From: Entoloma clypeatum
Lineage: Eukaryota; Basidiomycota; Agaricomycetes; Agaricales; Entolomataceae
NCBI GenBank assembly: GCA_963565915.1
Contig: OY751488.1
Location: 3,472,001-3,536,000 of the forward strand
Length of the DNA: 64,000 bases
Direction: 5' to 3'
Below, piece after piece: positions 2,111 through 56,988 of the stretch. How positions within the stretch are numbered: position 1 is the first letter of the stretch; every line of letters begins with the position of its first letter. The position numbers and the translations under genes are program-made. Under the pieces are notes generated by a model, which made no database searches, had not been told where the DNA came from, and worked only from the letters and a program-made list of their open reading frames with translations.

Positions 2111-2379
2111 ACGTCCTATGGATATGAGTTAGTCTTGTTTCATGATATTCATAAATTGTCATATAATGTGACGGTCATGTCTAAACAATGTGTCCTCATA
2201 TTTGAAGGTGCAAAACAACATGCTTACCTGAAATTGGAAGCCGTGGCGGTGGCTGCATTGGATGACCCCTAGGTTAACATTGTTATTTCAGACATATGGC
2301 AAATACATCCCCAAGCAAGTGATATGTAGACTAATTGTATGTATTACAAGTGTATTATTAAAAGTGTATAGTACGATAG

Positions 2380-2930
2380 TGTCACGTAGCGTGTTTCTCA
2401 ATGTCAGAAAATGTCGGACGAGTCGGAGCAGAATAGCGGAGGAGCGGAATGCGGTAAGTGCGACGTTGGCAGAAAGGACCTGGCTTCAACTTGTGCGTTG
2501 CGCCCCACTCTTTGACGTGGTCCTTGATTTTGGATTGGTGGATGTCAGATGAGCGGATGAGCGGATGAGCGGATGAGCGGAGGTGACGGAGAGAATGCTC
2601 AAAGGCAAGTAGAGAAGGATGTGAATGAGGTGTAACATATGATATTTGAACTGAGGTTCTACGACAGGTTTGTACACTATTTATAGTAGACTAGAATGAT
2701 CAGTATTACTATAAGTGATGTGCAGATATCGGAGTTGACCATCGGAACATTCGGAGTACGGAGAGTAGCAAATGAAAAGTGAACAACATATGTCTACTTG
2801 TAAGTATGGTTGAGATGTTACGTAGTAGAAGTATAATCAATATAAATAGAATGTTGTTGGAGCGGATGTCGGAGTGGATGAATCGTCGGAGTCGTCGGAT
2901 AAGTCGGATGTGAATTGTATGGTTATGACA
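2380..2930 (-). repeat. 3' LTR of gypsy A1 (551 bp)
   Basis: Matches 9104-9642 along its length. It is 12 bp longer, mainly because of extra GATGAGCG units near 2550-2580. By eye it holds about 19 CGG triplets on the plus strand and no CCG, a strong strand bias. It lies directly upstream of the plus-strand antisense gene and is the obvious place for that gene's promoter. Confidence 0.93.
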
Positions 2931-3061
2931 GTATTTCCCTCTTAGGGCTGAACCCTGAGGCCCAGATGAGGTAATCCACGTGACCGTTGGTTGAAAAGCT
3001 TTCTGCGTGATCTTTCTCTCTTGTCACCCAACCACAACATCTATCCCGACGCCTATCCATT

Positions 3062-4065
3062 ATGTCCGCTGAGAACTCACCCCTCGCCGCTCTTCGTGCT
3101 GAAAGGGAGCGCCAGAAGAAGGTCACTGAAGAGTTGAAGAGGAAGCTACAGGAGGCAGACGAGCGCGCGAAGGAAGATGCAGAGTGCGCGGAGGCAAAGA
3201 GGGCGGCGAAAGAGCAGAGACGAGCAGAGAGGAAGGCAGAGAAGGCGAAGGCGAAGGAACCGGTTGCGGGTGCGGGTGCGGATGCGGATGCGGATGCGGC
3301 GAATGCGGAGGTGAAGAAGGTCCGGCTGCGGGGGGTTTTCAAGAATATGCCTGCGAGTTACAAGCAGGGGAAGGAGGATTGCACCTCCTGCTTGAAAGCG
3401 GGGGACTTGTGTTTTTGGCCATCGGAGTGAGTTTTTTCTATTTCTTTATACGCTTCGTTATTAACTTGTTCTTTAGGAATGACAATGCTTCGTCGTGCTG
3501 GCGGTGCCAGCGTTTAAAACGAAGCTGCAGAACGGGAGCGGAAGCGGAGTCGGAGGTGAAGCGGAGGATGACCAAGGCGGTGAGGGTCAGAAAGGCTAAG
3601 GTGGCAGGTGGTGCGATGAAGAACGCGAAGGCGGGATCGTCCAAGGGAGAGGGGACCGCAGAGGGATTGCGGATAGCCGCAGCGTCGGCGGAGCCGGAGT
3701 TCATGCCGGAGGGGTTTGGTCCGCCGGAGGTGGTCATAGGCACGGAGGTGGTGAGAGGGCTTAGGAGCATGATAAGGGAGATGCGGCTGATAAAGGCGGA
3801 GTTGAAGGAACTGCAGGAGATCAAGGAGCTTTTGACGGTTATCGCATGGAGGGAGGATTCGGAGGCTTCGGAGGAGGGATCCGACGAGGACGAGGATGCG
3901 GAGGAGTATGATAGGGTATTGGAGGAGTTGGCAAAGGAGGTAGAAGAAGAAGAAGAAGAAGAAGAAACGAAGAAGCGGAAGCGGATGGAGGAAGCAGAAG
4001 AGGAATCCGGATCAGAGTGGAACGAGGAGACGGAGGGGGTATCTAACAAAAAACAGCGAAAGTAG
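3062..4065 (+). CDS. Antisense accessory gene of gypsy A1: Zn2Cys6-like nuclear protein, 317 aa
   Basis: Two exons, 3062-3426 and 3477-4065, with a 50-nt intron (GTGAGT...TTTAG). Order: short N-terminus, a charged Glu/Lys/Arg coiled coil (about residues 15-75), then C-x2-C-x6-C-x11-C-x2-C-x6-C spanning the splice site, a basic stretch, a second helical region (about 225-255), an acidic tail with a GAA-repeat run, and a basic end SNKKQRK that looks like a nuclear signal. The cysteine spacing is that of fungal Zn(II)2Cys6 DNA-binding domains, although here the basic residues are in the second half. It lies tail to tail with pol (45 bp apart) and starts 132 bp from the LTR. A homologue with the same intron is present in A2. 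The role is inferred: a DNA-binding regulator encoded by the element. Confidence 0.82.
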
Positions 4066-4110: not shown

Positions 4111-7100
4111 TTACAAGCGCGATAAGGGGCCTGGCTTAGTTGGTTGAGCGGAGTGGAAGTCCGCTACCATATCCACTGCGTGTTCAAGCTCAGATGCGGG
4201 TAACCAAGAAAACTCTTCACTGGTGTCTTCATAACCTAACCAGCGGACGAGGTAAAGGAGTTTGCAGCGTCGTCTTTTATCGATCTTTGAGTCGATGATT
4301 TCCGCAATTTCGTATTCGGTTTCTCCGTCCATCTCAAGCAGAGGCGGAGGAGATTGTATCCGATTTGGAATCTCGTTAGGAGTTGCTGGTTCGAGCATGG
4401 ATATGTGGAAGACGGGGTGTATAGCACACATAGTGTCAGGTAGACGTAGTGTAAAGGAGTGCGTGCCGGGTTGGGCTATGATTTCAAATGGGCCAGCATA
4501 TTTGTCGGATAACTTTTGGGTGGGTCGTGTGGTGCGGAAGAACTTGGCTTTAACAAAGACTTCTTGTCCGATGCGGAGCGGAGGAGGCGGAGAATGTCGG
4601 ACGTCCGCAGGGCCTTGATAACGTTGTTGTGCCTCTGCGACAGCAGTCTTTAGTTCTTGATGTAATTCATCTAAGTCGACGATGTATTGTCGAGCTTTAT
4701 CGGATGCTAGATCACGTTCTGGATGGAGTGTAATGTCGGGGTGATAACCTTTGTTGGCGAAGAATGGTGATACACCTGTAGTGGCACTCGGAGTGTTGTT
4801 GTAAGCGAACTCCGCAAGCGGAAGCAAAGTGGACCAGTTGTCTTGCTGGTAGTTGCAGAAGATGTGGAGGTATTGTTCGAGTGTTTGGTTGGTGCGTTCG
4901 GTTTGACCATCGCCTTCAGGGTGATATCCAGAAGTGAAGTGAAGTCTCATGTTGAGGGCTTTTGCAAGAGAGCGGAAAAAGCGGGAGACGAATTCAGGTC
5001 CACGATCGGATGTGACATTTTGCGGAACTCTGTGCTTGGAAAAGACGTGAAGCACGAAAAGGTTTGCTAGGCCTTCGGATGTGCAATTAATGGTGGTAGG
5101 GATGAAGATGCCTTGTTTCATGAGGCAGTCTACAATGACCAAAATCGCATCGGAGCCAGCGGATGTCGGAAGGGGTTCAATGAAGTCCATGGAAATAGAA
5201 TGCCAGGGATGTTCAGGAATAGGGAGTTGTTTAAGCAGACCGTAGGGTTTATGACGTTGGGGTTTGGCGCGCATACAAGTGGTACATGACTTGCAATACT
5301 TTTTGACGAAGTCGTGCATTCCAGGCCAAGTTATTCTCGTTGGATAAGACTAATAGTCTTATTCTGACCAGGGTGTCCAGCGAGGATATGGTCGTGCTTA
5401 TTGCGGAGGATGTGGAGACGGAGGTCGGATGAGTCGGGAACATAGATACGTCCATTGTGGAGTAGATAACCTGCTTCATTCACGATCCAGTGTGGATTAG
5501 GATTGTCAAGGAAAGAGGTGTAAATGGGATCGGTCGGAAGAGTGGAGAGGATGTCGGAGTGGAGCTGATCCGTATCCATAATGATTGTGGCACGGAGGAC
5601 GGGCGTATATAACTCTGTCGCGCGAAGTGAAGTGGTGAGCTGTTCTTGTGTGAAGATGGGTTTGAAGTTGCTTGGGTTGACGGACAAATAGTCGCTATTT
5701 CCCTCTTTAGGGTAGACATCCCATCGTCTACTTAAAAGATCGGGCTTCGTACCTAAACGGCCAGGGCGGAAGTGGATGACAAGATTGAACTGGCAGAGGT
5801 ATTCGGACCAACGAGCTTGTCGACGTGATAAAATCTTGGTAGTAGAAAAGTACTCAAGATTTTTGTGGTCCGTTACGACATCGATCAGAGCAGCGGAGCC
5901 TTCAAGGTAGTGACGCCAAACCTTGAATGCATCGTGGATCGCTAATAGTTCTTTGTCGTGGGTGTCATAGTTTAACTCGGGAGGTGTAAAGGTGCGGGAG
6001 TGGAAAGCGACCAGATGGATTTCATCGTCGGAGGTGCGGATGGAGAGGATCACACCCAAAGCGTAGTCAGAGGCATCGGTTTCGACGATAATAGGGCTGT
6101 CGGGAATCCAATGCGTAAGAACAGGTGTCATGGTAAAGGCTTTCTTCAAAGTTTTGAAAGATTCGCAAGCGGAGTCGGAGAAGTGCCATTGTGTGTTTTT
6201 GCGGGTGAGTCGAGTGAGCGGAACGGTGATTTCGGAGTAGTAAGGAATGAATCGTCAATAAAAATTGGCAAAACCTAAGAAAGACTGAATGCCTTTGACC
6301 TTCCTTGGTTCAGGCCAATCTTGAATAATTTTGACTTTCTTATCCGACAGGTGGAGGCCTGTCAGAGAGAGGATAAAGCCAAGGTATTCAACAGTATCCG
6401 TAGAAAACTCGCATTTGTCTGCGCGTGCGTATAAGCCGTGTTGTCGGAGACGTCGGAGGACTTCGCGGACATGCTTCCGATGCTCGGAGGGAGAGTCGGA
6501 GTAGATGAGGATGTCGTTGAGATATATGGTAACATACTTATCGAGCAGGTTGTGGAAGATGTCGTTCATGAAGCGTTGAAAAACGGCTGGGGAGTTGGTG
6601 AGTCCAAATGGCATGACAAGCCATTCAAAAGACCCGTAGCGCATGCGGAAGGCGGTTTTCCATTCATCTCCTTCCGCTATGCGGACGAGGTGATAGGCGT
6701 GTCGGAGGTCGAGAGCCGTATAAACACTGGCTTTTCCAGCGGTCTGGAGAAGGTCGGATATGAGCGGAAGCGGATATCAGTCCTTCTTTGAGATTTTGTT
6801 AAGACCACGGAAATCGACACAAAGACGAAGGGAGCCATCCTTTTTACGAACGAAAAGGACGGGAGCACCGTGCGGAGAGGAAGAGGGTTGGATGAATCCA
6901 ATGGTGAGGTGTTCGTCAATGAATTCACAGAGGGCATTGAGTTCAGTTTGTGAAAGGGAGTAGATCGGACCGAACAGAGGAGCGTAACCCTCTTCGAGTT
7001 CGATCTTGAGGTCGTAGGGACGGTGTGGTGGAAGAGTGTCTGCTTTTCCTTTACTGAAGACGTCAGCATAGTCGTGGTATTCCTCGGGTACATTTGTCAA

Positions 7101-7775
7101 GTCGGGGGTGTCGGAAGCGGATGCGGAGTGAGCGGAAACGGAGGGAGTCAAAAGGTGAAGTCGAAAGGATTGTGTACCAGGCAATTTGCATGCCCTCATA
7201 AATGCGGCTGCGTTAATGAGTGAAATCTGTGGAGGTACGATTGGAGGTTCCGGAGGAGGAAGCGTAGCTGTCCTACCTTGGGAGGAGGTCGACGTCGATG
7301 TCGGAAACGGCTCTTTTTGCATCTGTGGACGGAAAGTGATACTGCCCAATACCCAGTCAATCATAGGATTGTGGCGGGTGAGCCAGTTGTATCCAAGAAC
7401 CATGGAAGAAGTGGAGTCGAGCGGAGTAACATAAAAATCCTGTTCGAAAGATTCACCTGAAGGAAAACATATAGGTATTGTTACAACTTGAGTGATAAAC
7501 ATGTTAGAAGAACCATCGAAAAGCTTTAGTTCTAAAGGTGGAATAGCGGAGGTGGGAAGATCATAAGCGGAGGAAAAGTTAATGTCAATAAAACAGTGGG
7601 TAGATCCTGAATCAATAAGTGCTGGGACAGAATCTGAAGAGAAAAAAGAAGATGAGATATTGATACGTAAAGAGTTCGGATTGGAGAGAGTGGATGCGTT
7701 AACTCGGATGGGAGCGGAGGCACGGAGAGAGTCAACGCAGTCCTCAGACTGTGCTTCATGAGGACCACTGCCTAT
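4111..7775 (-). pseudogene. pol: pol of gypsy A1 (protease-RT-RNase H-integrase-chromodomain)
   Basis: Read in the -1 frame relative to gag. Protease: D-S-G-S-T near 7600. [11 protein letters not shown] near 6790, then MPFGLTNSP and [10 protein letters not shown]; the first catalytic Asp is Asn. RNase H: VETDASDYALG, then TDHKNLEYF. Integrase: zinc-binding region, then D (ISMDFIEPLP), D (TSDRGPEF) and E (DGQTERTNQ), all present. A C-terminal chromodomain (YEIAEIIDSKI ... YLVRWLGYED) ends at 4111. Defects: TGA at 6777-6779, TGA at 6255-6257 (Arg codon expected after ANFY) and a one-base frameshift near 5331-5340. Chromodomains of this class target integration to heterochromatin (established for chromoviruses). 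Confidence 0.92.
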
Positions 7776-9052
7776 TTTTTTGACTCGATCTCCTTACCTT
7801 TTTCCTTGGCTTGAGTGCCAACTTGGGCGGCTTTCCCTTTAGCCTTGGAAGCGGAGGAGGTGGACTTGGGATAGTCCTTGACAGCGTGTCCGACGCTACC
7901 ACAGAATAAGCAAAGGTTATTATCGAAACGACATTTGCGTTCTTGATACGTCAGTTTGCCATCTTTGCCTAATTTACTGGAGAGGTCGGGTTTCGGAGCG
8001 GATGTGGAAGCGGGAGCGGAGGGTTTAGTTGATGATGTTTGTGTGGTGGATTGGTTTGGAGCGGATTGTTTCTTGTCGGACTTGGGAGTGGGTTTATTGG
8101 TTCTGGATTTCTCTCGTTGACGTTCCCAGTAGCGAGCATCAATAGTATGAGCCGTGGATCGTAGGTCTGGTGAAGACTTGATCTTGGGTTGTTGGGAGAG
8201 GATGTCCTTGATCTGATCCGGAAGTCCGACGTAGTAGCGGTGTCGGAGGGAGTTTTCATCCCAATCAGTCTTGGTAACAAGATGTTGGAATTCAACGTTG
8301 TACTTCAATATCTTTTGATTTTCCTTCATCCGTAGGTTGTCCAACTGTTCTTCGGCTTCGCCCTGAGGGTCAATGGTACCAAACTCGGAGCGGAGAAGTC
8401 GGACAAACTCGGGGAAAGAACCCCGCCAATTGGGTTCATCATCGTCAAGAATGAAGGGTTCAAAAAATTCGAGTGCTGTGCCTCGGAAGTAAGACATGGC
8501 AAAGTTGACTTTGGAATGTTCTGAGTCGAAGTTGTCATTGTTGGAGAAGTAAAGTTTGCATTGTAAAATGAATGCGGAGAGTTTGCGCAGATTGGATCCG
8601 TCGAAGGTATCCGGTTCGTTGGCATACGACTTTTTCTTCTTTGTATCTCGACGTTTCAACTCTTTGGTCATGAGCAGAATGGCTTCAGCTAGATTGGGTT
8701 CCTGATCTGGATTGGAATCGGAGTCGTCCAAATCTCCATGTAAACTACCGTCGGAAGGAGGAGGAGATCCTCCTGGAGGTAAGCCGAATAAGCCAGAATT
8801 TAGAGGTGCGGAGAGTTCCGTTGGTGGGTTTAGTGGAGGACTGGCAGGAAGTGGTGGGAGCTGAGAGTCGGAAGAAGGCGGAGGAATGGATGGTCCGGGG
8901 GTAGGAGCAGATGATGATGCTGTGGCTCCTCGAGGGGTAATGGTTACATTGCGTGTTCCTCGAAGAAAAGCAGAGCGTGGTGTGGAGGATGAACATTCTG
9001 CTGCTGCACGAGCAGTCCTAGTTGTTCGAACTGTATTACGGGTTTGAGACAT
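7772..9052 (-). CDS. gag: gag of gypsy A1
   Basis: A 426-aa open frame from [10 protein letters not shown]. An ATG at 9109 is in frame but overlaps the LTR, so the 9052 start is preferred; A2 starts at the equivalent place. A Ser/Pro/Thr-rich N-terminus is followed by a retrotransposon-gag capsid-like region (around [13 protein letters not shown] ... [10 protein letters not shown]), then a basic segment and one zinc knuckle, [14 protein letters not shown], whose last Cys is replaced by Tyr. The frame ends ...TCA AAA AAA TAG, a classic A-AAA-AAA slippery site, with pol open in the -1 frame immediately after. Confidence 0.9.
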
Positions 9053-9090
9053 GTGGGTAGAGGTTGTTGGGTAAATCAAAGAATGGTGGT

Positions 9091-9103
9091 AGTTCAAATA
9101 TAC
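9091..9103 (-). promoter_or_regulatory. Self-priming primer-binding site of gypsy A1
   Basis: Two nt after the LTR the element strand reads ATATTTGAACT. It is the exact 11-nt complement of AGTTCAAATAT in the same LTR (plus-strand positions 9354-9364), which lies about 30 nt downstream of a TATAAATAG and so near the predicted RNA 5' end. No tRNA-type TGG follows the LTR. This is the arrangement known from the Tf1/sushi group. Confidence 0.75.
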
Positions 9104-9642
9104 TGTCATGTAGCGTGTTTCTCAACATCGGAAAATGTCGGATGAGTCAGAGCGGAGTAGCGGAGGAGCGGAATGCAGTAAGTGCAACGTTGGCAGAAAG
9201 GACCTGGCTTCAACTTGTGCGTTGCGCCCCACTCTTTGTTTGACGTGGTCCTCGATTTCGGATTGGCAGATGTCGGATGAGCGGATGAGCGGAGGTGACA
9301 GAGAGAATGCTCAAAGGCAAGTAGAGACGGATGTGAATGAGGTGTAACATATGATATTTGAACTGAGGTTCTACGACAGGTTTGTACACTATTTATAGTA
9401 GACTAGAATGATCAGCATTACTATAAGTGATGTGCAGATATCGGAGTTGACCATCAGAACATTCGGAGTACGGAGAGTAGCAAATGAAAAGTGAACAACA
9501 TATGTCTACTTGTAAGTATGGTTGAGATGTTACATAGTAGAAGTATAATCAATATAAATAGAATGTTGTTGGAGCGGATGTTGGAGCGGATGAATCATCG
9601 GAGTTGTCGGATAAGTCAGATGTGAATTGTATGGTTATGACA
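9104..9642 (-). repeat. 5' LTR of gypsy A1 (539 bp)
   Basis: Pairs with 2380-2930. TGTCA...TGACA ends; TATA-like box (plus strand ctatttata near 9389-9397). Confidence 0.93.
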
Positions 9643-10252
9643 GTCCGCCCCAGTTTCCCGTTCCCTGGCAGGTGGTTCGCTGATGCCATCTGGCGCGGAT
9701 CCCCACACTGTCCAGGATCTCTGTCTTGCCATCGCCCAATTGGACGGATCACTCAGGGACAAGCCACTGATCTGGAGTTGTTAAGACCCTTTGACATACC
9801 CAGGGAGTTAAAGCCCAGTGATATGGGCCCACAGGCAGATGACTAACAACCTACATAGCACCTCTCAGCCTAGTACATACCCAGGGAACCAGCACATCGA
9901 TGGATACACCACAAGCCCCCCCAGTGATGCGGCCTGCAAGCGAGAGTGGAACCCCTCTAACAAGGGAGTTACCCCAATGGAGGTTCAATTTATGCAGGGG
10001 GTGACCTGATGGGGGCATATCCCATATTTGGTTTGTTTTTCCATGGATTCCCCCTCTTATCATCCCCTATCCAGTTGTTCAGTCCCTTTACGGGCATCAC
10101 CATACACCCCATGGGGCAGAGGCTACTTGGGGTGTTGCGGCAACATGTTCCATCATGTGATGTATTAGGTAATGACACATGACTACTTTGTGCACCCTCA
10201 ACTTTATGCTACCTTAGGAGACATTCCCACGGTAGACTTACAAGGTGTTGAG
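9643..10252. other. Unassigned flank of gypsy A1
   Basis: No credible reading frame. This moderately GC-rich stretch could be the body of a SINE whose tRNA-like head is at 10253-10335, read leftwards, but no second copy is present to define its ends. Confidence 0.3.
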
Positions 10253-28184: not shown

Positions 28185-28653
28185 TGTTACATTCCGATCA
28201 TTTCTGACCAATTCCGACACCTCCGACACCTCTGACATTTTGACTAATACTTATTATGCATTCCTACTGTTATGAATCTCGTTACTACGTACATTACTTA
28301 CATCTGACCATTTTACTTATGTTAAGCATCTCCGACAGCCACTTGTTATCCGACTCCGATGAAGCCACACGTCCTCTGACATAGTATTTAAACTTATGTA
28401 GAATTGTGTATTAGCTTCAGTTTGAATATCAACTTAGATTCGACATCATACCTCCCGTCCTCGTTCCGACTCTTAACTTGAGTCTGACCTCCGACCCTCT
28501 GATCCTCCGAAATAAGGACACTGACGTATTAGTGAGGGTGCAACACACAAGTTGAAGCCAAGTCCTTGCCCTTACATTGCACGTGCTCCGACTCCGATGA
28601 CCCTCCGACGCATCCGACGTAGCTCCGACGTTTTTGTCAATCAGTTCTTAACA
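28185..28653 (+). repeat. 5' LTR of gypsy A2
   Basis: TGTTACATTCC...TTCTTAACA. TATA-like TATTTAAA at 28385-28392. About 15 CCG and no CGG on the plus strand by eye. About 16 differences from the 3' LTR, most at CpG. Confidence 0.95.
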
Positions 28654-28667
28654 GTATATTCAAACTG
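28654..28667 (+). promoter_or_regulatory. Self-priming primer-binding site of gypsy A2
   Basis: ATATTCAAACTG (28656-28667), 2 nt after the LTR, is the exact complement of CAGTTTGAATAT (28418-28429), which lies about 33 nt after the TATA-like box. Two bases differ from A1 at both partners, keeping the pairing. Confidence 0.75.
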
Positions 28668-28699
28668 CCACTCGCTTATCCATATTTCAAATTCCAGTT

Positions 28700-30294
28700 A
28701 TGGCAGCCCGCACCCCTCAGAACTCCCGCGCAGCAGAAGCTTCAAACCTGCAGGACACCAGGGTGTCATTTCTACATATGTTCCAAGATCTTTCCGCAGA
28801 ACCCAAACGTGACCCCATATCTCCGACACCACATCCCTGAACACCTCAAACATTGGGACCTCTGATCCCTGAAGGATCCCGTCATTCCCACAAATCTCCG
28901 ACTTCTCCTTTCAATGACAACAATCCTTTCCATCACGAGCAAACTCCAAACCTCGCCGAAGCAATTATGCTTATGACGCAGGAGCTCCGACATAGAGAGA
29001 CTCCAAAGATTCTGAAAAAGAAGTTGAAGGAACCTGACTCTTTTGACGGCTTCGACTCTCGGAAACTCACCAGTTTCCTCGCACAATGCACCCTGTATTT
29101 CCGAAACAGCCCCGCTTTTGACGACGATGATAACAAACTCAGTTTCGCTCTATTGTATCTCTGAGGAACCATGCTCGAATGGTTTGAGCCCATCCTCTTG
29201 GGAGAGTCCGACGATGACACTGTCTGGTTGGACGATTGATTGGTCTGCCTTTGGACACATCCTCCGATCTGAACTCGGACCTATCAATCCGACTGGAGAA
29301 GCAGAGGATAGTCTGGATCCCTTCAGATGCACGACAATCAGAAGATCCTACTGTATATTACAACGTGGACTTCAAACATCTTTCCGCTCGCACACAGTGG
29401 GATGATGGCATGCTCTGATATCGGTACTATACCGGTTTAGCGGAACGTATCAAAGATGTTTTAGGGACCTACCCCAAACCTAAGACTCTGGCTGAGTTGA
29501 AGATAATGGCCCATAACATCGATGCTCGCTACTGGGAATGTCAACACAAGAAATCGCGCTCCTCCGACAAATCTACTCTGAAATTCGACAAATCTGATGT
29601 TACGGACTCTATGGTATGAGGACCACGTCATATCTTTGACTTATCGGCCCGACTCGGCGCCCTCTTACGAGCTTACTATGTCTAATGTCTACTTCCGCAA
29701 CCTTCAATTTCCAGTCTGACTCATTACATTACTTCGTCATCCCCTTTAGTATACTTTGCTCCCGCGCTGACTCGCTTTCCGCAGTCAGCTTACTCACTGT
29801 ACATAGCCTTCCGCAGTCGCCTTACTCATGCGCACTGCCTTCCGCAGTACTGACTCATCCGCTACCGCCTATAGTCAGTACCTATATAAACCTCTTGTAC
29901 TATGGTAGATTCCTTAGATTTAGCAATCACTTTGCTCTTCGCCTTTCCACTTTCCTGCATACTCTGCCCGAACCTTGGAACGGTTTGTTAAGCATAACAT
30001 CTGACAGGAAACAGACCCCCGCTTCATCATCCTCCAATAACAACCCGTCGTCTAAACCCAACTCGCAACAACAACAAAAATCATCATCCACCTCTCCAAA
30101 ATCCGCCCTCTCTGACAAACTTGGCAAAGATGGGAAATTGACTCCCCAAGAACGCCAACAATGATTTGACAATAATTTATGCATGTTTTGTGGCAATGTT
30201 GGGTCATCGGGCTTCCGACTGCTTGAAGAAAGCAGAGCCCCGCGCGACCCAAGCTGAGGACAAATCAGAGAAGACGACTGAATCAAAAAAATAG
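28700..30294 (+). pseudogene. gag: gag of gypsy A2, interrupted
   Basis: Starts MAARTPQNSRAAEASN. Capsid region EPDSFDGFDSRKL near 29030 matches A1. Broken by several TGA stops (for example 29162, where Y-L-R-G-T is expected), by a frameshift in the zinc knuckle (near 30200) and by a solo LTR at 29598-29999. It ends TCA AAA AAA TAG at 30283-30294, the same slippery site as A1. Confidence 0.85.
29598..29999 (+). repeat. Solo LTR of gypsy family B in A2 gag (402 bp)
   Basis: TGTTACGGACTC...TTAAGCATAACA, the same length as the LTR at 36427-36828. Flanked by tctga (29593-29597, 30000-30004). Removing it plus one duplication rejoins gag. Confidence 0.96.
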
Positions 30295-33200
30295 TAAGCA
30301 GTCCTCAGATTCCAGCACGTACTGGGGATTGTGTTGACTCCTTTTGTGCACCTTTGGAACCCTCCGACTCAATGTGTCCGCTCTCTCAAATCTGAACTCT
30401 CTATGTATTGATTTGATATCTCCGACCTTTTCTGATTCTCTTCCGATAAAGACTCTTATTGATTCTGGTTCTACACATTGCTTCGCAGATACCAGATTTA
30501 TTTCGTCTTTAAACTTATCTCCAACTCTGATTCCTTCACCTATGGTTTTGAAACTTTTTGACAGTTCTTCAAATACTTATATCATGCAATCTATCAATCT
30601 TCCTCTCCGATTCCCTTCCCGTGAACTTCTGACCATCGCATTTTACGTCACAACCCTCGATTCATCTTGTAATTTGGTTCTAGGACACAACTGGCTCACC
30701 CACTACAATCCATTGATTGACTGGGTATTGGGCAGTATCTTATTCCATTCTACATTATCTGACACTCCGAGTCCGACTCCAACATCAACTGCTGAGGCAG
30801 CTCCGCCACGTCTGCAGTGTCCGCCCTCTCCGATGGGCACCTCCGATCTGCTCACTCCGAACACCTCCAACCTGCCACAGATTACCATGGTCAATGCAGC
30901 TGCATATCTCCATGCTTGTAAAGCTCCTGGGGCATACATACGCTTTCTGTGTTCACCTCTCCGACATCTCCGCCAATTCTGTGTCTGTCTCCGACAACGC
31001 TCCTGACCTTTCTGGCATACCCGAGGAATACCACGATTTTGCTGATGTATTCAGTAAGAAAAAAGCCAACACCCTTGCACCCCACTGACCTTACGATTTC
31101 AAGATCAATTTGGAGGAAGGTACTTCCCCTCTGATTGGTCCGATGTACTCACTCTCGCAATCCGAACTTGGATCCCTCCGAGACTTCATCGACGAGCATC
31201 TCAATATCGGTTTCATCAAACCTTCTAGTTCACCTCACAGTGCTCCGATCCTCTTCGTCCGAAAGAAAGATGGATCACTCCAACTATGCGTCGACTACTG
31301 AGGCCTGAACAAAATCACAAAGAAGGACCAATACCCACTTCCACTCATCTCCGACCTCTTAGCCACTGCTGGAAAAGCACATGTTTATACCACCATAGAC
31401 CTCCGACACGCATACCACCTAGTCCGCATCGCTGAAGGTGATGAATGGAAAACTGCATTCCGCACTCGCTATGGATCATTTGAATGGTTAGTAATGCCAT
31501 TCGGATTGTCTAACGCACCTGCAGCCTTCCAATGTTTCATGAACGACATCTTCTCCAACCTTCTGGACAACTGTGTTACTGTTTACCTCGACGACATCCT
31601 GATCCACTCTGACAACCCTGAGGAACACAAAAAACATGTCCGAGAAGTCCTCTGACGACTCCGACAACATGGTCTTTAAGCCCGCGCCGACAAGTGCGAC
31701 TTCTCTGCCGAAACTGTAGAATATCTTGGATTTATCCTTTCTCCCGACGGACTCAAAATGTCGGAAGCGAAAGTCAAGATTATTCAGAATTGGCCTGAAC
31801 CGCGCAGAGTGAAGGACATCCAGTCCTTTTTAGGGTTTGCAAACTTTTACCAATGTTTCATTCCATTCTATTCCAACATCACTATTCCACTCACTCGTTT
31901 AGTTTAACCAGGAAACATGCCACTTGGCTGTTTTCCAACGACGCTCGAACCGCTTTTAATGACCTGAAAAAGGCATTTACCACCGCTCCGATCCTGAACA
32001 CACTGGATCCCTGACTCTCTGATAATTGTCGAAACCGACACATCCAACTATGCCCTAGTGCCTATTTTGTTGATCGTCACCTCCGACAATGAAGTCCACC
32101 CTGTCGCATTCCATTCCCGCACCTTTATGGCCCCCGAAGCAAACTATGACACCCATGATAAGGAACTTCTTGCCATCTATGAAGCATTTAAAATTTGGCG
32201 CCATTATCTCGAAGGCTCCAGTACTCCAATTGATGTCGTTACCGACCACAAAAATCTCGAGTATTTTGCCACCACCAAAGTTCTTTCATGCTGACAAGTC
32301 CAATGGTCGGAATACCTTTCTCAGTTCAACCTCGTCATCCGATTCCGCCCCGGCCGATTGGGAACTAAACCCGACTCTCTAACTAGAAGTTGGGATGTCT
32401 ACCCTAAAGGGGCAAATAGCGACTACGTTGACATCAATCCGACCAACCTCCGACCAGTCTTTTCGCAAGAACAGCTCTCCACTTCAGTTCGTGCGACTCA
32501 ACTCCTTGAGCCCATCCTCCGTGCAACCATTATCATGGACACAGAGAAGCTTCACCACGACATACTCACAGCACTCCCTTCCGACACTCTTTACGACACA
32601 AACCCCGCTGGTCTCTCGACCCCAATGGTTTCCTCTGACATGCCAATCAGATATATGTTCCTGACTCCGACGACCTCCGACTCCAAGTCCTACAGCACAA
32701 GCACAATCATATGCTTGCTGGACACCCAGGTCAGAACAAGACACTCAGTCTCATTCAGCGCGATTACACCTGGCCCGGAATACGAGATTTCATCAAACAC
32801 TATTGCAAGTCATGTACCACTTGCATGCGATTGAAGCCACAAAGACACAAGCCTTACGGCCTACTCAAACAGCTTCCGATCCCCAAACATCCTTGGAATT
32901 CTATCTCAATGGATTTCATTGAGACCCTTCTGACCTCCGACAACTTTGACTCCATCCTCATTATTGTTGACCGATTAATGAAGCAAAGTATCTTTATTCT
33001 GACAACCATTTACTGCACCTCTGAAGACCTTGCCGTACTCTTCGTATTACATGTCACCTCCAACCGCGGCCCCGAATTCATCTCCCGATTCTTCCGATCT
33101 CTCAGAAAGGCTCTAAACATGACCCTCCACTTCACCTCCAGTTACCACCCCAAAGGCGATGGCCAAACCAAACGCACTAACCAGACCCTCGAACAGTACT

Positions 33201-33958
33201 GGCAGATATTCTGCAACTACCAACAGGACAACTGGTCCACTCTCCTTCCGATTGCGGAGTTCGCGTACAACAACACACCTAGTGCTACCACTGGCATATC
33301 TCCCTTCTTTGCTAACAAGGGTTACCATCCAAACATTACTGTTCACCCGGAATGAGACCTTGCCTCTTCCCGAGCCCGATCCTTTGTGACCGACTTAGAC
33401 GAACTTCACCAAGAACTGAAATCCACCATCTCCGATGCTCAACAACGTTACCAAAAGTCCTCCAACAATAATCGGATCGCAGCTCTGACGTTCTCTGTCA
33501 GACAACAGGTTTTTGTCAAAGCACAGTTCTTCCGCACAACATGCCCATCCCAGAAACTCTCAGAAAAGTACTTGGGACCATATGAGATCCTTGCACAACC
33601 CGGCACACACTCCTTTACCCTCCGACTTCCCGACACATTCCGCGGAGTTCACCCCGTCTACCACGTCTCCATGCTTGAACCTGCAACTCCGAACACCATT
33701 CCGAATTGGACCCAACCTCCGCCTCCTCTGATTGACATTGACGGAGAACTTGAGTACGAGATTGCTGAAATCGTCGACTCAAAGATTGACTGACGACGTA
33801 GCTGCAAGCTACTATATTTCGTCCGTTGGTTAGGATATGAAAACACTGATGAAGAATTCTCTTGGCTACCAGCCAATGAACTGGAAAACGCCCCCGAGCT
33901 TGTTTCTGACTTTCATTCTGCTTATCCCGACAAACCGGGTCCGCTCACATCGTTCTGA
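30292..33958 (+). pseudogene. pol: pol of gypsy A2
   Basis: In order: protease ([10 protein letters not shown] near 30460), RT ([21 protein letters not shown] near 31212; [10 protein letters not shown] near 31590, catalytic pair intact), RNase H (TDHKNLEYF near 32242), integrase (SISMDFIETL near 32905; GQTKRTNQ near 33165, where A1 has GQTERTNQ) and chromodomain (YEIAEIVDSKI ... YFVRWLGYEN) ending at 33958. Stops occur at 31299, 31653, 32292, 33353 and 33791, among others, mostly CGA to TGA when compared with A1. The third catalytic acid of the integrase is Lys. Confidence 0.88.
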
Positions 33959-33985
33959 AACAAGAAAAACAAGTACTATTGCTAT

Positions 33986-34888
33986 CTACTTAGTACGTTG
34001 TTTCTTGTTTGACGGACCCTCCTCCTTGTCCGACTCCTCCTCCTCCTCCGCCTTCTCCGACGGCTCCGAAATCGACATGTCAGAATCGTCCGACAGCTCC
34101 GGCAACTCCAACCTCTTCCTATTCACAATATCTTTCCTTATTCTCCTCGCGATCCTCTTCTCCAGCCTTAATTTGTGCGTCTCCTCCCTCGTATCCATCT
34201 CCGACTCCGACCCTTCCTCCAACACCTCCGGCGACTTGGGTTGATACTCGGCGTTCACCGAGCCTTTGACTGCTGTTAGCAGTCGCCTCATCTGCCTCGT
34301 CTCCGCCAGTATCATCTTGAGGACACCCAAGATGGTGTCCTCCAACCCACTCTCCGATGGCATCTCCGACGTCTTTTTCTTCCCCTTATTCACCTTCACC
34401 GTTTTCTTCACCTCCTTAACCTCCGACTTTCCCTCCAATGCTCTGACCTCGCACTTCTTCTTGTCTTTGACACAACCCTTGCAGGATGACTTATTCCTAA
34501 AACAAAAGGTTAAAACAGAAGAGACGAACCAAAGAAGAACTCACTCATCGCGTTCACATTTGACGCCCTTCACAATGCACCTATTGCAGGTGCCGACCCC
34601 GACCCCCTCTCCAACCGTCGCCGTCATCTCCTCTACCTTCCTCTTCTTTGTCACCTTCTTCTTCCTCTCCGCCTGCGGCCCCCCTGACCCCTTGCTCGAC
34701 GTGCCTTGCGCAACGGCCACTTCATTGGCCCTCTTCTGAGCCGCCAGCTCCGACACCCAACACATCTCCTCTGCTACCTGCGCCGCCTCCGCAGCCCTCT
34801 CTTTCTCCTCAGCCTTCCTCACAGCCTCCTCCTCCGCTGCTTGCTTCTTTGCCTCCACCTCTGCGAGCTTAGCCTGCAGCGCCTCCAT
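33986..34888 (-). CDS. Antisense accessory gene of gypsy A2: Zn2Cys6-like protein, 284 aa
   Basis: Exons 34888-34545 and 34496-33986, with a 48-nt intron (34544-34497) in the same phase (GA|G) and between the same cysteines as in A1. Order: N-terminal coiled coil (about residues 1-60, Ala/Glu/Lys-rich), basic patch, C-x2-C-x6-C-x8-C-x2-C-x6-C (CNRCIVKGVKC ... CKGCVKDKKKC), helical region LKMILAETRQMRRLLTAV, acidic Ser/Glu/Asp segment and the end SNKKQRTK. It converges with pol (27 bp between stops) and starts 123 bp from the 3' LTR. No stops or frameshifts, in contrast to the opposite-strand pol. Confidence 0.83.
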
Positions 34889-35011
34889 CTTCTTTTGAAA
34901 ATCAGAACCACTTGTATGGTATTTTCAACCAATGCATCACATGACACAGTTCACATGCACCAACCACCTAGGTCCTTAGGCCTCATGGGTTCAGCCCTAA
35001 GGGGGAAATAC

Positions 35012-35480
35012 TGTTACATTCCGATCATTTCTGACCAATTCCGACACCTCCGACACCTCTGACATTTTGACTAATACTTATTATGCATTCCTACTGTTAT
35101 GAATCTCGTTACTACGTACATTACTTACATCCGACCATTTTACTTATGTTAAGCAGCTCCGACAGCCACTTGTTATCCGACTCCGATGAAGCCACACATC
35201 CTCTGACATAGTATTTAAACTTATGTAGAATTGTGTATTAGCTTCAGTTTGAATATCAACTTAGATTCGACATCATACCTCCCATCCTCGTTCCGACTCT
35301 TAACTTGAGTCTGACCTCTGACCCTCTGATCCTCCAAAATAAGGACACTGACGTATTATCGAGGGCGCAACACACAAGTTGAAGCCAAGTCCTTGCCCCT
35401 ACATTGCACGTGCTCCAACTCCAACGACCCTCCGACGTGTCCGATGTAGCTCCGACGTTTTTGTCGATCAGTTCTTGACA
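35012..35480 (+). repeat. 3' LTR of gypsy A2
   Basis: Pairs with 28185-28653. Confidence 0.95.
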
Positions 35481-45482: not shown

Positions 45483-45913
45483 TGTAAGGGCGATCTTACA
45501 ATCCAAGACAAACTCAGATACTTGCAAGGGAGATCCGAAGTTTAGATCGAGCAGTCTGATAAGTAATACAACACACACCTTGCAAGGGAGATCTGAAGAG
45601 AAAGTTCTAAGGATTCCCCTGCAAGCTAGCGAGATAAATAGTAAAATGAGATATGAAATAAGAGATAAAACGAGACACATGAATGATGAGCAATGATCGG
45701 GAGTAGCGATGAAGGATAAATGGAAACAAGATGAATGATAGTACCTGCAATCTGACGTGCGGAGTAGCGGATGGGGGTGGAGTCATCGGATGCAGAGGGG
45801 CAGATAAGATGTCGGAGACAGTGGATAGGATCAGAGGACGTCGGAGATGGGGGAATAGAAAGGAAAGGAAGAAAGGAAAGGAAAAGTGAAAAGTGAAAGT
45901 GGTTGCCCTTACA
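45483..45913 (-). repeat. 3' LTR of gypsy C
   Basis: Pairs with 57001-57433. Confidence 0.95.
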
Positions 45914-45924
45914 TCACCCCCCCT

Positions 45925-46878
45925 TCAAGGCACGGCGTCTCGACGTGTCAGGCAAAATGAGTCGAATATTGCAGTGGTGATCCGCCGCGGAGCTCCTGGA
46001 TGACGTCGGTAGAAGTCGCGGACTAGGCGCGGAGTGTGGACATTGTCTTCTGCTTCCCAGGAATTCTCTTCGTAGCCATATCCCTTCCATTTGACCAAGA
46101 ATTGAAGCTTGCCTCGATGCAGTCGGCTGTCCAAGAGGTTTTCAACATCATACTCCAATTCTTCTCCAACTACCGTCAGAGGCAGAGGAGAGCAGACTTG
46201 GCATCAGAAAGGGTTGTCAGGAACTAGTAAAAGTTTGACGACATGAAATACTGGGTGAACGCGGGACATGCAAGGGGGAAGGCGAAGTTTGTAGGCATGT
46301 GTTCTTTGTCGGAGCGGGCCACTCTTGATCTCCGTCCACTTCTCACAAGGTTCGAATCCCATGCGCGGATGGTGGCCGGTGTCAATGTAGAATGGAGTTT
46401 GACATGTCGATGCGTGAACATGGTTGTTGTATGCAAATTCAGCCATCGGAAGCCATTCGTCCCAATCGTCTTGACGTTCATTGACGAATAGGCGAAGGTA
46501 TTGTTCCAATCCTTGATTGACCCGCTCTGTCTGTCCATCCGACTGCGGATGGTAGGCTGTCGAGGCAGCAACCTTAATGTTAAGCAGCCTGTATAGTTCG
46601 CACATGAACTTGGCGACAAACTGTGGTCCTCGGTTGGAGACAATGGCCTCTGGTAGTCCATGGAGTTTCCAGACATTTTGAACATAGGAGCGTGCAGTCC
46701 CAAGTGCGGAGATGTCGGAGTGCGTTGGGATGAAGTGTCCCTGCTTCCCTACTGAGTCCACTACGACCATGATAGCGTCATAGCTGTGGGCTTCTGGTAG
46801 TTCAGTAATGAAGTCAACACTGGTTACTTGCCATCGCTCCGTGGGGACTGGTAGCGGATTGAGCTCTCCGGAGGGCGG
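45925..46878 (-). pseudogene. pol: pol end of gypsy C (integrase core, chromodomain)
   Basis: Continues pol after the family-B insert: SGELNPLPVPTERWQ, VTSVDFITELP (first D), then IVSNRGPQF where the second catalytic D is Asn, and DGQTERVNQ (E). The chromodomain (YDVENLLDSRL ... FLVKWKGYGYEENSWE) ends at 45925, 11 bp before the LTR. Confidence 0.88.
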
Positions 46879-47611
46879 TGTTATGCTTAACAAACCGTTC
46901 CAAGGTTCGGGCAGAGTATGCAGGAAAGTGGAAAGGCGAAGAGCAAAGTGATTGCTAAATCTAAGGAATCTACTATAGTACAAGAGGTTTATATAGGTAC
47001 TGACTATTGGCGGTAGCGGATGAGTCAGTACTGCGGAAGGCAGTGCGCATGAGTAAGGCGACTGCGGAAGGCTATGTACAGTGAGTAAGCTGACTGCGGA
47101 AAGCGAGTCAGCGCAGGAGCGAAGTATACTAAAGGGGATGACGAAGTAATGTAATGAGTCAGACTGGGAATCGAAGGTTGCGAAAGTAGACATTAGACAT
47201 AGTGAGTGTTAAACCAATCAAGTCAAAGCACTACTAGTGATAGCACTAGTCAGATACGATGTCAAGAATAGTCTGCAATTCACCAATTCACAGAGTTTGT
47301 TAATAGTTCTGTGTTTCGCAAGTTTGCAAAAGCAGTAATGTGTCCCAGTCCGGGACATAGTTGGATTCTGGTTCTGTATGCTACTGTTTGGTACAGAAAT
47401 GCATGAGGCGTGATTCTAGGTGTCCACTATATCGCGTTTTTGCTATTTTATATATAACTCTATATGTACTATATTGTAGAATGTTCCTTGACATGTAATA
47501 AAGTGTTTTATCACAAATATTGCACTTTAACAGTGAGTTCGTAAGAGGGCGCCGAGTCGGGCCGATAAGTAAAAGATATGACGTGGTCCTCATACCGTAG
47601 AGTCCGTAACA
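46879..47611 (-). repeat. 3' LTR of B2, carrying a nested solo LTR
   Basis: 402 bp of family-B LTR plus 331 bp (326-bp insert and its 5-bp duplication). The purine tract GAGAGGGGAACA lies just before it in element sense. Confidence 0.95.
47207..47532 (+). repeat. 326-bp solo LTR of an unassigned element
   Basis: TGTTAAACC...TTTAACA with perfect 7-bp inverted ends, flanked by gtgag (47202-47206, 47533-47537). Plus-strand TATATAA near 47455 and AATAAA near 47499 suggest the plus orientation. No related LTR elsewhere in the window. Confidence 0.88.
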
Positions 47612-47645
47612 TGTTCCCCTCTCCAAGCTCTGTGTCCTCACAGAG

Positions 47646-48017
47646 TCACTGTCCCCATCCCTCGTTGTTGCCGGGATCAGACCAGTTCGGACTTTCCTTG
47701 AGGCTCCAATCATATATCAACTCCTCGTTGATGGCTACGGCGAGTTCAAGGCCTTTGATGGCCAGCCGAATACGTCGATTCTCGATTACGAGGGTGCTGG
47801 TGTAGTTTCCGAGAATTTGTTTTTCCTCAGGACTCGGGGCGACGGGTAGGTTGGACAGCGAGTGAAGCCGGATATGCATCTGGCGATGGAGGAGGTCGGC
47901 AAGGGAAGTTTCGAGAGCATGGATTTGGTCTTCCATGGAGAGTGCTTCGTTCATGAGGGCGGCGATGGCGGGGTTGATGTCGGTGGTAGAGGTGGAGGTA
48001 ACGGTGGTGTTGGACAT
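47646..48017 (-). CDS. Sense-strand accessory frame of family B, 123 aa
   Basis: Open frame from MSNTTVTSTSTT downstream of the chromodomain and before the 3' LTR. It starts 134 bp after the pol stop. A Ser/Thr-rich start is followed by two predicted helices (ALMNEALSMEDQIHALETSL and RRIRLAIKGLELAVAINEEL) that could form a coiled coil. No known domain recognised. It sits where family A carries its antisense gene. B1 has lost this region, so conservation cannot be tested here. Confidence 0.5.
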   Translation of the reverse strand: MSNTTVTSTSTTDINPAIAALMNEALSMEDQIHALETSLADLLHRQMHIRLHSLSNLPVAPSPEEKQILGNYTSTLVIENRRIRLAIKGLELAVAINEELIYDWSLKESPNWSDPGNNEGWGQ

Positions 48018-48151
48018 GGCGGCGAGGATGATTGAGAGATAGAAGAAGAAGGGGGAGGCTATATTGGGCAGGAAAAAGAACTAGAGTGGGGAACTCGGTG
48101 TGTGGTTGACTGATGAGGTCGATACTTGTCATGGATTCTGAGAGCTGTCTT

Positions 48152-50844: not shown

Positions 50845-50885
50845 GCAAGTCCGTTTAATAGATAAGGGTCGCGACTTAGCGTCGT

Positions 50886-52483
50886 TTAATCGGACCCTTT
50901 GGGAAAATCCTTCTCGTCGGCTTCTAAGATTGTGGTTTCATCATTCTCGGCATCTTCCTCAGACACCTTCCTAACCCTTCCGGAGTTCTTCTTCGGCTTG
51001 CGGCAGTTGCGCGCGATATGGCCTTCTTGGTCACAGTTGAAACACTTGCGACCATCTTTCTTCTTTGGAGCACTACAGTCTTTAGCCAGATGACCGAAGC
51101 GTTGACAGTTGTAGCAATGGGCGACTCCTGCTTTGTCGATCTCCATGGCCTTGCCCTGACCACCATAAGTGGTACCCGATCCGGTGCGCATGTTGCCGCC
51201 ACCTCGGATGACCAGTGCGTGTCCTTCCATCTGTCGTCCCTTGTTTCGGATCTCCTTTGCGTAATCGGTGTACGTCTTGCCATCGCTAGCCACTTGTTCA
51301 GAGATTCTGCGGTTGACGTTCTTTTCTAGGATGTATTTCCCAGTTCCTTTGCCAAGGTTTGACAGCTTCAAGAGTTCTTCGAATTCATCCAAGAATTCAT
51401 CAACGGTACGTTTCTCTTGTTTCAGGACTTCAAGTCTGGCTTTGGCAGCGACCGACTTGTTGGCGATGGAGAATCGTGTGGCGATATCATTGGAAAAACC
51501 TAGCCAGGTGATGTTCTCGTTGTCAACAGCAAGAGCGTCTAATTTGTTACTGGCCCAGTGTCTGCCGGACCCTTCCATCATGCGGGATAGCACCGCAAGA
51601 ATCTTCTGATTGTCTGTGAGGCTCTTTTGGAACCTGATGTATAGTTTGGTGGCCTTCCACCACTCGTCAAAGGTGTATCTGTCCTTGAACATCCCAGGAT
51701 CCTTGATGATCTTGGATATATCCATTGTTTGTACAGCCGGAGCTTCTGCCATGTTTAGAGTCTGCGGAGGAGAAGAGGAGTCGGGTTGTTGGGATGAAGA
51801 TGGGGTTCGGGATACAGGTAAGGATTGAAAATGAGTCCCTGTTCTAGGCGTCTGTTCGATATCTGACTGTGCGGAGTCAAAAGTAAATTTGTCAGGGGAC
51901 TCATCGGCGGAATCGGTGGCAAAACGTTCAGAGTATTTCCTCTGTAAATCTCTAAGGAATCTCTGTTCCTGCGTGTCTGTTGGTCTCGAGAAGGGGTCAA
52001 GTCTCTCGTTTCGTGCCCAGCGGTTGTACTCGGTCTGTTGTTCTTCGGTGGTGAAGTGGGCGTAGATCTGCTGCTTCGAGTAAGACGTGATGATGTGGCT
52101 CTGGGACGTCTCGATGTGAGCATCCTAATCAATCTTCTGATAACGGTTGTCTGGACACCGATAAACTCTCTGATCTCTGTGATCCGACCTGTCTGAGGTC
52201 CTTCTTGAACGCGAAAGCTTTCGAGTTTGTTCTGTCGGGCGTTGTAACACGCGATCTGGTGTTGTTGAGCAAGATGGATGCTCTCTGCTATCTCGCCGTG
52301 GGGGCGATGCTCGTCGTTGTCTAGTTCTTCATCAAGCACCTGCTGTAGGATGCGACGGATCTCCGATTCAATGTACTGCTGGATGAGTGTAAAATTGATA
52401 CTGTCTCGAGGACTTAGCTCCTCCTGTCGGGCTTCTGGCATGCTGAATGGGTTACTGGTGAAGTCTTCAAAGAAGCGCGACAT
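50886..52483 (-). pseudogene. gag: gag of B2
   Basis: Starts MSRFFEDFTSNPF. A helical N-part, then a -1 frame change near 52090-52140 as in B1, then KQQIYAHFTTEEQQTEYNRWARNERL... leading without a stop into MAEAPAVQTMDISKII (51752), capsid-like DEWWKATKLYIRFQ and two zinc knuckles, CYNCQRFGHLAKDC and CFNCDQEGHIARNC. The original frame also stays open to 51755, two bases before the ATG at 51752. Confidence 0.85.
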
Positions 52484-52530
52484 CTTGACTCGTCTGGTAG
52501 TTGCTCTCTTCGCTCTGGGCGAACCTAATG

Positions 52531-52543
52531 AGATTTAGCAACT
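52531..52543 (-). promoter_or_regulatory. Self-priming primer-binding site of B2
   Basis: Element strand TTGCTAAATCT (plus-strand 52531-52541), 2 nt from the LTR, is complementary to AGATTTAGCAA in the LTR (plus-strand 52617-52627), about 30 nt past TATATAA. Confidence 0.75.
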
Positions 52544-52945: not shown

Positions 52946-52950
52946 GGCGG

Positions 52951-56839: not shown

Positions 56840-56988
56840 TACTATGCGCGGAGCAGAATCACCAGTTACGGATAGGTAATTAGAAGAACTGGAAGGGGTA
56901 TGAGATGTATCAGAGTCAGATGCGGACGAAGCTGCTCCGAAGCGCGGAATCGTGACAACAATGCAATCGGACCCGGTCCAATTAGAAG

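Follow-up and report, generated by a model that had tools for sequence, protein, structure and literature searches.

What might a two-exon gene for a protein with a zinc-cluster-like cysteine motif do in a Ty3/gypsy chromovirus, where it lies on the strand opposite to gag-pol, and is it a gene at all? These questions are raised by a locus of the fungus Entoloma clypeatum; the window studied here, i.e., the whole stretch of DNA that was analysed, covers 64 kb of a genome of 60 Mb that is assembled into 20 contigs. A sequence-only reading had placed such a gene between the integrase and the 3′ LTR of two elements, A1 and A2. In A1, both exons were confirmed to the base (3062-3426 and 3477-4065), and the antisense gene is near certain to be real; its product is a predicted DNA-binding regulator.

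An antisense two-exon gene in chromovirus elements

The two elements in the window and their parts are the following.

2376-9644, element A1, Ty3/gypsy chromovirus, gag-pol on the minus strand
2376..2932, plus strand, A1 LTR adjoining the antisense gene (3′ LTR for gag-pol), self-BLAST pair
3062..3426, plus strand, A1 antisense gene, exon 1, with the N-terminal charged/coiled region and the first Cys half
3380..3412, plus strand, first half of the A1 Cys cluster, CTSCLKAGDLC, from the translation
3427..3476, plus strand, A1 intron, GTGAGT...TTTAG, 50 bp, phase 2
3477..4065, plus strand, A1 antisense gene, exon 2, with the second Cys half, middle segment, acidic region, SNKKQRK and stop
3496..3528, plus strand, second half of the A1 Cys cluster, CWRCQRLKRSC, with the invariant Lys at Cys5+4
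4111..5319, minus strand, A1 pol with integrase core, Tf2-1-type SH3 and chromodomain (Pfam)
5331..7502, minus strand, A1 pol with RNase H and RT, and an upstream stretch without Pfam match
7772..9109, minus strand, A1 gag ORF from a mechanical listing, Retrotrans_gag 9.9e-08
9100..9644, plus strand, second A1 LTR (5′ LTR for gag-pol), self-BLAST pair
28185..35480, minus strand, element A2, LTRs 28185-28653 and 35012-35480
29598-29999, foreign LTR nested inside A2
33986..34496, minus strand, A2 antisense gene, exon 2, ending SNKKQRTK
34497..34544, minus strand, A2 intron, GTGAGT...TTTAG, 48 bp, phase 2
34545..34888, minus strand, A2 antisense gene, exon 1, lacking its N-terminal part in the window copy

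The layout of A1 is that of a chromovirus, with reverse transcriptase, RNase H and integrase in this order and a chromodomain after the integrase, and both elements are flanked by LTR pairs, which by self-BLAST are 92% identical in A1 (2376-2932 / 9100-9644) and 96% identical in A2 (28185-28653 / 35012-35480). Pfam matches in A1 pol comprise RVT_1, RT_RNaseH, Integrase_H2C2 and SH3_Tf2-1 (5.1e-16), as well as Chromo with 32.6 bits, over the cut-off of 25.1, while rve with 29.9 bits is slightly under its cut-off of 32.6. The RNase H/RT region of A1 lies in broken ORFs (5331-6149, 6255-6644 and 6777-7502). A purine-rich tract, judged by eye, stands beside the LTR on the pol strand in A1, A2 and a further group, A3, in the place of the PPT of such elements next to the 3′ LTR. 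The first ATG of the A1 gag ORF is located at the LTR edge. Rfam and tRNA scans of the 64-kb window returned one tRNA and otherwise nothing.

The antisense gene of A1 converges with the pol ORF (4111-5319), 45 bp separating the two ORF ends, and its spliced product of 317 aa ends in SNKKQRK. A charged, coiled N-terminus is followed by the compact putative zinc cluster, a middle segment, an acidic region and a basic, NLS-like end, and the protein is of low complexity outside the cluster. As had been read from the letters, translation places a phase-2 intron between the third and the fourth Cys in both A1 and A2; a stop of the frame, TGA in A1, overlaps the donor in both, so that the two Cys halves are joined by splicing only. 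The gene proposed for A2 was found with the expected layout, intron and SNKKQRTK end, but it is incomplete, since the window copy has lost its original N-terminus; the relatives L070 and L073 begin further upstream, L070 with the sequence MSASDFQKEMEALQ.

The sequence-only reading had made its claim depend on further copies with this frame, and these were found across the genome. A DNA search with A1 returned at least 40 matches, 39 of them full-length (40 of 145 candidates scored), and protein searches gave at least 133 matches for A1 and at least 180 for A2, both counted per exon, with more than 100 A2 places among the matches listed. Of the 86 places with A1-type RNase H (at least 87% identity), 64 are followed by an antisense-gene match, which lies on the other strand 0.8-4 kb further downstream, at a median distance of 1272 bp; the other 22 comprise six with a match closer or elsewhere within 12 kb and 16 with none among the matches listed. 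In a number of A1 and A2 copies the antisense genes differ little or not at all from one another. Open frames among the A2 protein matches had made intron-less or read-through copies a candidate, which was dropped when the one examined, L073, turned out to have an ordinary intron with a stop.

Beyond A1 and A2, the gene is present in two further groups, each examined in one copy. These are A3 (L069), with about 79% identity to A1 in RNase H and an antisense-gene intron of 56 bp in phase 2, and A2b (L070), a sister of A2 with 64% identity in exon 2. The proteins of A2, A2b and A3 are 29-30% identical to that of A1, largely in low-complexity sequence, and the phase-2 intron sits at the identical place in all four.

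Selection on the gene and the cysteine cluster of its protein

Sixty distinct places (30 A1 and 30 A2) were examined in full, which were chosen as best matches and are therefore biased towards intact copies. A GT...AG intron of fixed length, 50 bp in A1 and 48 bp in A2, is present in all 60, and the antisense gene is intact or open at 51 of the 60 places in this best-match sample, i.e., intact in 26 of 30 A1 copies and open through both exons in 25 of 30 A2 copies, start and stop codon not being demanded in the latter. Exon lengths among copies vary mostly by multiples of three.

Pairwise Nei-Gojobori dN/dS, estimated from intact copies only and from pairs that are not independent, is 0.33 in the A1 antisense gene (24 distinct intact sequences) and 0.34 in that of A2 (26 distinct sequences), and the shifted frames give 1.34 and 0.70 in A1 and 1.30 and 0.84 in A2. 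With the same limits, the integrase-chromodomain region of the A1 loci has a pN/pS of 0.35 (24 distinct sequences; 0.88 and 1.03 in shifted frames), and the antisense gene has 0.33; in the 19 loci shared with the integrase-chromodomain set its value is 0.32. In the Cys domain, pN/pS is 0.23 in A2 and 0.73 in A1, the latter resting on very few changes. With a ratio of about 0.33 as in the integrase, the antisense gene is held by selection like pol; purifying selection maintains it, and the check on dN/dS suggested at the outset gave a value well away from 1 among the copies in this genome.

A frame that is open by chance, or a piece of host sequence that was captured and drifts functionless while GA-rich low-complexity sequence keeps its frames open, could draw on the low complexity of the protein outside the cluster and on slippage in multiples of three, which could hold length changes in frame. 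Such an origin is hardly credible, because it is contradicted by the constant intron, by the six Cys kept across families that are about 30% identical, and by a dN/dS like that of the integrase against 0.7-1.3 in shifted frames; a neutral ORF is ruled out by dN/dS together with these shifted-frame controls.

The cysteine spacing is C-x2-C-x6-C-x11-C-x2-C-x6-C in A1 and the same with an x8 loop in A2 (C-x2-C-x6-C-x8-C-x2-C-x6-C), and A1, A2, A2b and A3 all show the zinc-cluster spacing CxxCx6C - loop - CxxCx6-8C. The proposal of a Zn2Cys6-type domain agrees with this spacing, but the Pfam profile Zn_clus (PF00172) matches the four proteins below its cut-off, with 12.2-14.1 bits against 21, so that membership in the Zn2Cys6 family is putative. 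Six half-clusters (A1, A2 and A3) scanned singly against Zn_clus gave no match. Partial matches of A1 and L070 had suggested that the halves are swapped relative to canonical Zn2Cys6, which is contradicted by A3, whose first half matches profile positions 2-13, and by A2, which is matched in native order, and which finds no support in the scans of single halves.

A1, A2, A2b (L070) and A3 all retain the six cluster Cys together with one Lys, and this Lys, at Cys5+4, is the sole invariant non-cysteine of the cluster among the four family representatives. It is also invariant in 24 of 24 A1 and 26 of 26 A2 distinct intact sequences, while the cluster Cys are conserved in all 24 A1 sequences and one of them is replaced by Tyr in 2 of the 26 A2 sequences. 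Zn2Cys6 proteins recognise CGG, and their cluster fold has a pseudo-twofold symmetry. We take the Lys at Cys5+4 to correspond to Lys18 of Gal4, located at Cys2+4 there; the Lys-bearing half is the second in the antisense protein and the first in Gal4, and given the pseudo-twofold symmetry, a Lys in the second half need not prevent DNA binding.

According to the available part of one structural account (PMC5559640), Gal4 Lys18 touches the guanines of CGG, and Pho7 lacks that Lys although it binds a TCGGA site, so that the Lys is not required for such a site. Gal4 and Pho7, as described there, share with the antisense protein the six-Cys spacing CxxCx6C-loop-CxxCx6C, a coiled region and, in Gal4, the Lys at the Lys18-like position, and their sites are of the CGG type, that of Pho7 being TCGGACATTCAA; the antisense protein differs in being under the Pfam cut-off, in carrying the Lys in its second half and in being coded by a retrotransposon (PMC5559640, same part).

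A protein database search scored 7999 candidates for A1, none with E <= 0.01, and 70 for residues 118-218 of L070, none with E <= 1, fungi possibly being absent from the database. As well, 600 pattern matches in viral contigs, a collection from which fungi are possibly absent, included no relative of the antisense protein, and a PDB sequence search returned nothing relevant.

The CGGA word in and beyond the gene-bearing elements

The strongest clue to the function of the antisense gene, overlooked in the sequence-only reading, is the word CGGA, which is the most over-represented 4-mer on the gene strand of A1, A2 and A3 relative to a first-order Markov expectation. It occurs 141 times against 37.9 expected in A1 (2376-9644), 103 times against 28.7 in A2 (28185..35480, nested piece excluded) and 60 times against 19.4 in A3, of which only 2.1 kb were counted, while TCCG on the same strand (27 against 23.3, 14 against 19.5 and 17 against 9.9, respectively) is clearly above expectation in A3 only. 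The ratio of CGGA to TCCG on the gene strand of the LTRs is 18:0 in A1 (LTR 2376..2932) and 11:0 in A2. Genome-wide, triple TCGGA clusters number 5110 against 27 for the reversed pattern, with short gaps and overlaps counted.

For the gag-pol of A1 and A2, an artefact of codon usage or base composition was excluded by synonymous and dinucleotide shuffles. When the gag-pol coding pieces, one of which contained a stop codon in A2, were shuffled 500 times each among synonymous codons, sense TCCG averaged 37.7 ± 4.2 against 66 observed in A1 and 16.7 ± 3.4 against 38 observed in A2, the observed counts being reached in 0 of 500 shuffles in either case, and the excess is spread over all three codon phases. 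Sense CGGA, i.e., the word on the 'wrong' strand, counts 21 against 13.8 in A1, reached in 11 of 500 shuffles, and 5 against 5.8 in A2. Within the antisense gene itself, the excess of CGGA over synonymous shuffles is only weak, as the actual counts are attained in 89, 41 and 22 of 1000 shuffles, and its sites fall mostly in the A/S/T/P-E/D codon phase (19/24, 21/23 and 21/24), so that motif and protein composition are inseparable there; the acidity of the protein may come partly from the motif, or the motif from the acidity.

Along the alignment of pol between A1 and A2 (70.7% identity), 63 CGGA in A1 and 46 in A2 were counted, 20 of them coinciding, and this shared fraction of 20/63 is within the range of other 4-mers (GAAG 9/39, AGGA 8/28, TGGA 5/33). 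CGGA density is maintained though many sites differ between A1 and A2, in part through decay in old copies; 14 of the 63 A1 sites face TGGA or CAGA in A2, probably as a result of decay after insertion. The base 5′ of CGGA is G in 66, T in 56 and another in 19 cases in A1, and T in 80, G in 19 and another in 4 cases in A2 (chi-square p about 3e-8).

Between aligned copies, a CpG is frequently TpG or CpA in the partner copy. Deamination affects CpGs in the CGGA context less than other CpGs (0.080 against 0.0985 in A1 and 0.257 against 0.2995 in A2) and those in the TCCG context more (0.119 in A1 and 0.344 in A2), the copy pairs in this comparison not being independent, and other changes are about half as frequent or less at CGGA CpGs. 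These values would fit a host that methylates CpG in the A elements, with a mild constraint or protection at CGGA.

The word is also found in another chromovirus family of the window, C/D, which has many frames of 1356 aa and is laid out as follows.

45483..57433, C/D family copy, in the pieces 45483-46878 and 52946-57433 around a nested element
46879-52945, nested element B, within the C/D family copy

No gene was seen between pol and the 3′ LTR of C/D in the window copy or in two others (L071 and L072), and yet the family is CGGA-rich on both strands (68 CGGA and 53 TCCG against 23.0 and 23.9 expected), and its coding pieces, which partly overlap, beat synonymous shuffles on both strands (0/500). 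The idea that CGGA is exclusive to gene-bearing elements is thereby ruled out; an element can carry the motif without having the gene in cis, and behind the motif in C/D possibly stands a factor of the host, or one that acts in trans and is exploited. The orientation of CGGA in the C family shifts along the element and is balanced overall, and the 3′ end of L071 has 19 against 5, with the strand preference as in A. A mild CGGA excess is likewise not unique to A, since the window piece of the E family has 10 against 5.2 expected and nested element B has 35 against 19.7 on one strand. No excess was found in L074, an E-family chromovirus with a long open pol frame (3.7 kb; CGGA 15 against 18, TCCG 15 against 14); of 1000 synonymous shuffles of its pol, 691 and 768 reached the observed counts. 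Nor was there an excess in a copia-like stretch of 1.6 kb, named by eye, or in 16.4 kb of other window stretches.

A putative self-recognition system, its rivals and its known counterparts

The reading that we prefer, and hold to be somewhat more probable than its denial, is that these elements form a chromovirus clade with a self-encoded DNA-binding regulator that would coat its own family via CGGA. The antisense gene, tail to tail with pol, would probably be transcribed inward from the 3′ LTR side, and its RNA would be spliced, as the constant GT-AG introns suggest; since the genomic RNA carries the intron in antisense orientation, retrotransposition does not remove it. Most likely, the protein would bind the CGGA sites, which are spread over the entire element with one orientation prevailing, would coat the DNA of its own family and might then affect the LTR promoters and the chromatin of related elements, as an activator or anti-silencing factor, which is our first choice, or as a copy-number brake. 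The gene with its intron and copies, the purifying selection on it and the strand-biased CGGA enrichment are seen in the sequence itself; we infer that the protein binds zinc and DNA, that motif density is selected for and in which direction the protein acts. A bolder version can be put forward tentatively, in which an LTR clade would have written the CGGA read by its own protein into its LTRs and, by synonymous changes, into gag-pol and would use it to release its family from host silencing, and the gene-less C/D elements would have acquired the same word and exploit the protein in trans.

It is rather unlikely, though worth weighing, that a host zinc-cluster activator reads CGGA and is exploited by several LTR families, the antisense gene being otherwise employed, e.g., in RNA binding, nuclear export or integration, or bearing a mere resemblance to such factors. 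In favour of this activator, fungi commonly use Zn2Cys6 factors as regulators of their own, and C/D is CGGA-rich although it lacks the gene; however, the motifs run throughout the gag-pol coding sequence, beyond the need of a promoter, the antisense genes retain the CGG-reading Lys, the flank preference of CGGA is family-specific, and L074 and the copia-like stretch manage without an excess. A special case of the preferred reading, which we regard as a tentative possibility, is anti-silencing of the VANC type, where the protein on same-orientation CGGA arrays would strip silent marks from its own family. That the A elements are methylated is suggested by the strong deamination of CpG between copies, and CGGA CpGs are lost slightly less, although this protection effect is small and comes from pairs that are not independent; dense same-orientation arrays are a described feature of VANC21 targets in the available part of PMC5735166, but VANC motifs are mainly non-coding and often arranged in tandem repeats, whereas CGGA also runs throughout coding sequence.

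Self-limitation, by which the antisense protein would repress gag-pol from its own LTRs and so control copy number, agrees with motifs in both LTRs and body and with the tail-to-tail arrangement with pol; it is unlikely, as numerous A1 and A2 copies, some of them identical or nearly identical in the antisense gene, argue against strict control. More doubtful still is a motif that acts in RNA, where UCCG of the genomic RNA would be bound for packaging or export. This would give the strong strand bias of A1, A2 and A3, but the orientation in the C family varies along the element and is balanced overall, and LTR and body are equally dense, unlike packaging signals, which are usually local.

The sequence-only reading had considered such a gene novel among chromoviruses. 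This claim stands insofar as the titles and abstracts found in one open-access library included no fungal LTR element with a zinc-cluster gene in antisense, and it is narrowed by plant Gypsy elements of the Retand lineage, in which antisense TRP28 ORFs lie in the same place, between pol and the 3′ LTR (PMC11963269, available part). In both systems the ORF is retained in copies, in Retand in recently active ones; the TRP28 ORFs resemble those of the A elements also in their predicted DNA binding and suggested regulatory role, and tandem-repeat arrays are reported in about half of the Retand elements (PMC11963269, same part). Retand elements differ in being non-chromoviruses of plants with a TRP28 domain (PF04195) of unknown function, and the word intron is absent from their description, as is a self-motif from the available part of it (PMC11963269), whereas the A elements are fungal chromoviruses with a zinc-cluster-like domain, a conserved intron and CGGA arrays. 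Consistently, PF04195 gave no match on the A1 exon frames, and A1 pol has a chromodomain, unlike Retand.

HTLV-1 HBZ, an antisense bZIP gene of a deltaretrovirus, codes for a nuclear regulator near the 3′ LTR and is comparable in these respects; its protein and host are unrelated, and we know of no dense self-motif for HBZ. The existence of antisense genes in HTLV is also noted in the available part of PMC11963269. From basidiomycetes, Gypsy elements have been reported that carry additional dUTPase domains, and a figure legend names an 'add. ORF' of unknown function; these resemble the A elements as chromoviruses with an additional coding part, but the dUTPase is located at the ends of pol or inside it, and the available part of that report describes no antisense zinc-cluster gene (PMC2864245).

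Transposon-coded DNA-binding self-recognition is already known from plant DNA transposons with VANC. Like these, as far as the available parts of PMC5735166 and PMC10398659 go, the A elements code for a proposed DNA-binding factor and carry a dense, mostly same-orientation motif with family-specific variants, to which binding is proposed here. The Arabidopsis VANDAL elements are DNA transposons for which binding and loss of methylation were shown experimentally (same parts of PMC5735166 and PMC10398659), whereas for the A elements both are predicted; moreover, CGGA also fills coding sequence and is not confined to the family coding for the factor, as the gene-less C/D family is enriched. If the preferred reading is true, a retrotransposon version with a zinc-cluster-like protein and a word inside coding sequence would mean that such arms-race systems arise independently, and the A elements would offer a compact system for how a protein distinguishes a transposon family from host DNA. 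What such antisense genes contribute to elements that carry them between pol and the 3′ LTR can then also be tested, and the conserved antisense intron indicates that a retroelement can keep an intron-containing gene through retrotransposition.

CpG differences among A1 and A2 copies

Among the A1 and A2 loci that were read (L001-L068), copies differ heavily by CpG to TpG/CpA changes, and this pattern is a sign of cytosine methylation or of a RIP-like process.

Other chromovirus families and TCGGA clusters

The C/D chromovirus family (window 45483-46878 and 52946-57433; genomic copies L071 and L072) is CGGA-rich on both strands, with a strand preference that switches from place to place along the element, while no antisense gene was seen in the window copy, L071 or L072. 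Frames of 1356 aa are present in many C/D copies. As well, the E/B family of the same genome has an ORF of about 170 aa located 3' of pol in copy L074, and may be another family carrying an extra gene in the after-pol slot.

L074:2050-2572, sense strand: E/B-family ORF, open frame, MSNITAAS inside

Some TCGGA clusters elsewhere in the genome, such as C1:515373, C1:538128 and C1:2404549 (contig C1, G000), differ in sequence from the A and D LTRs recognised by eye, and are possibly further families.

Inverted repeats and a neighbouring tRNA

Window 15192-16611 and 39838-41257: Tc1/mariner-like element, two inverted copies, 99.9% identity
Window 15106-15180: tRNA-Ile (anticodon TAT), directly adjoining the Tc1-like copy
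Window 61633-62536: long inverted repeat, aligning at 83% with its own reverse complement

The first Tc1/mariner-like copy (15192-16611) encodes a Tc3-type HTH and DDE_3, and the element was probably active recently. In addition, window 14727-14939 matches 41251-41463 exactly.
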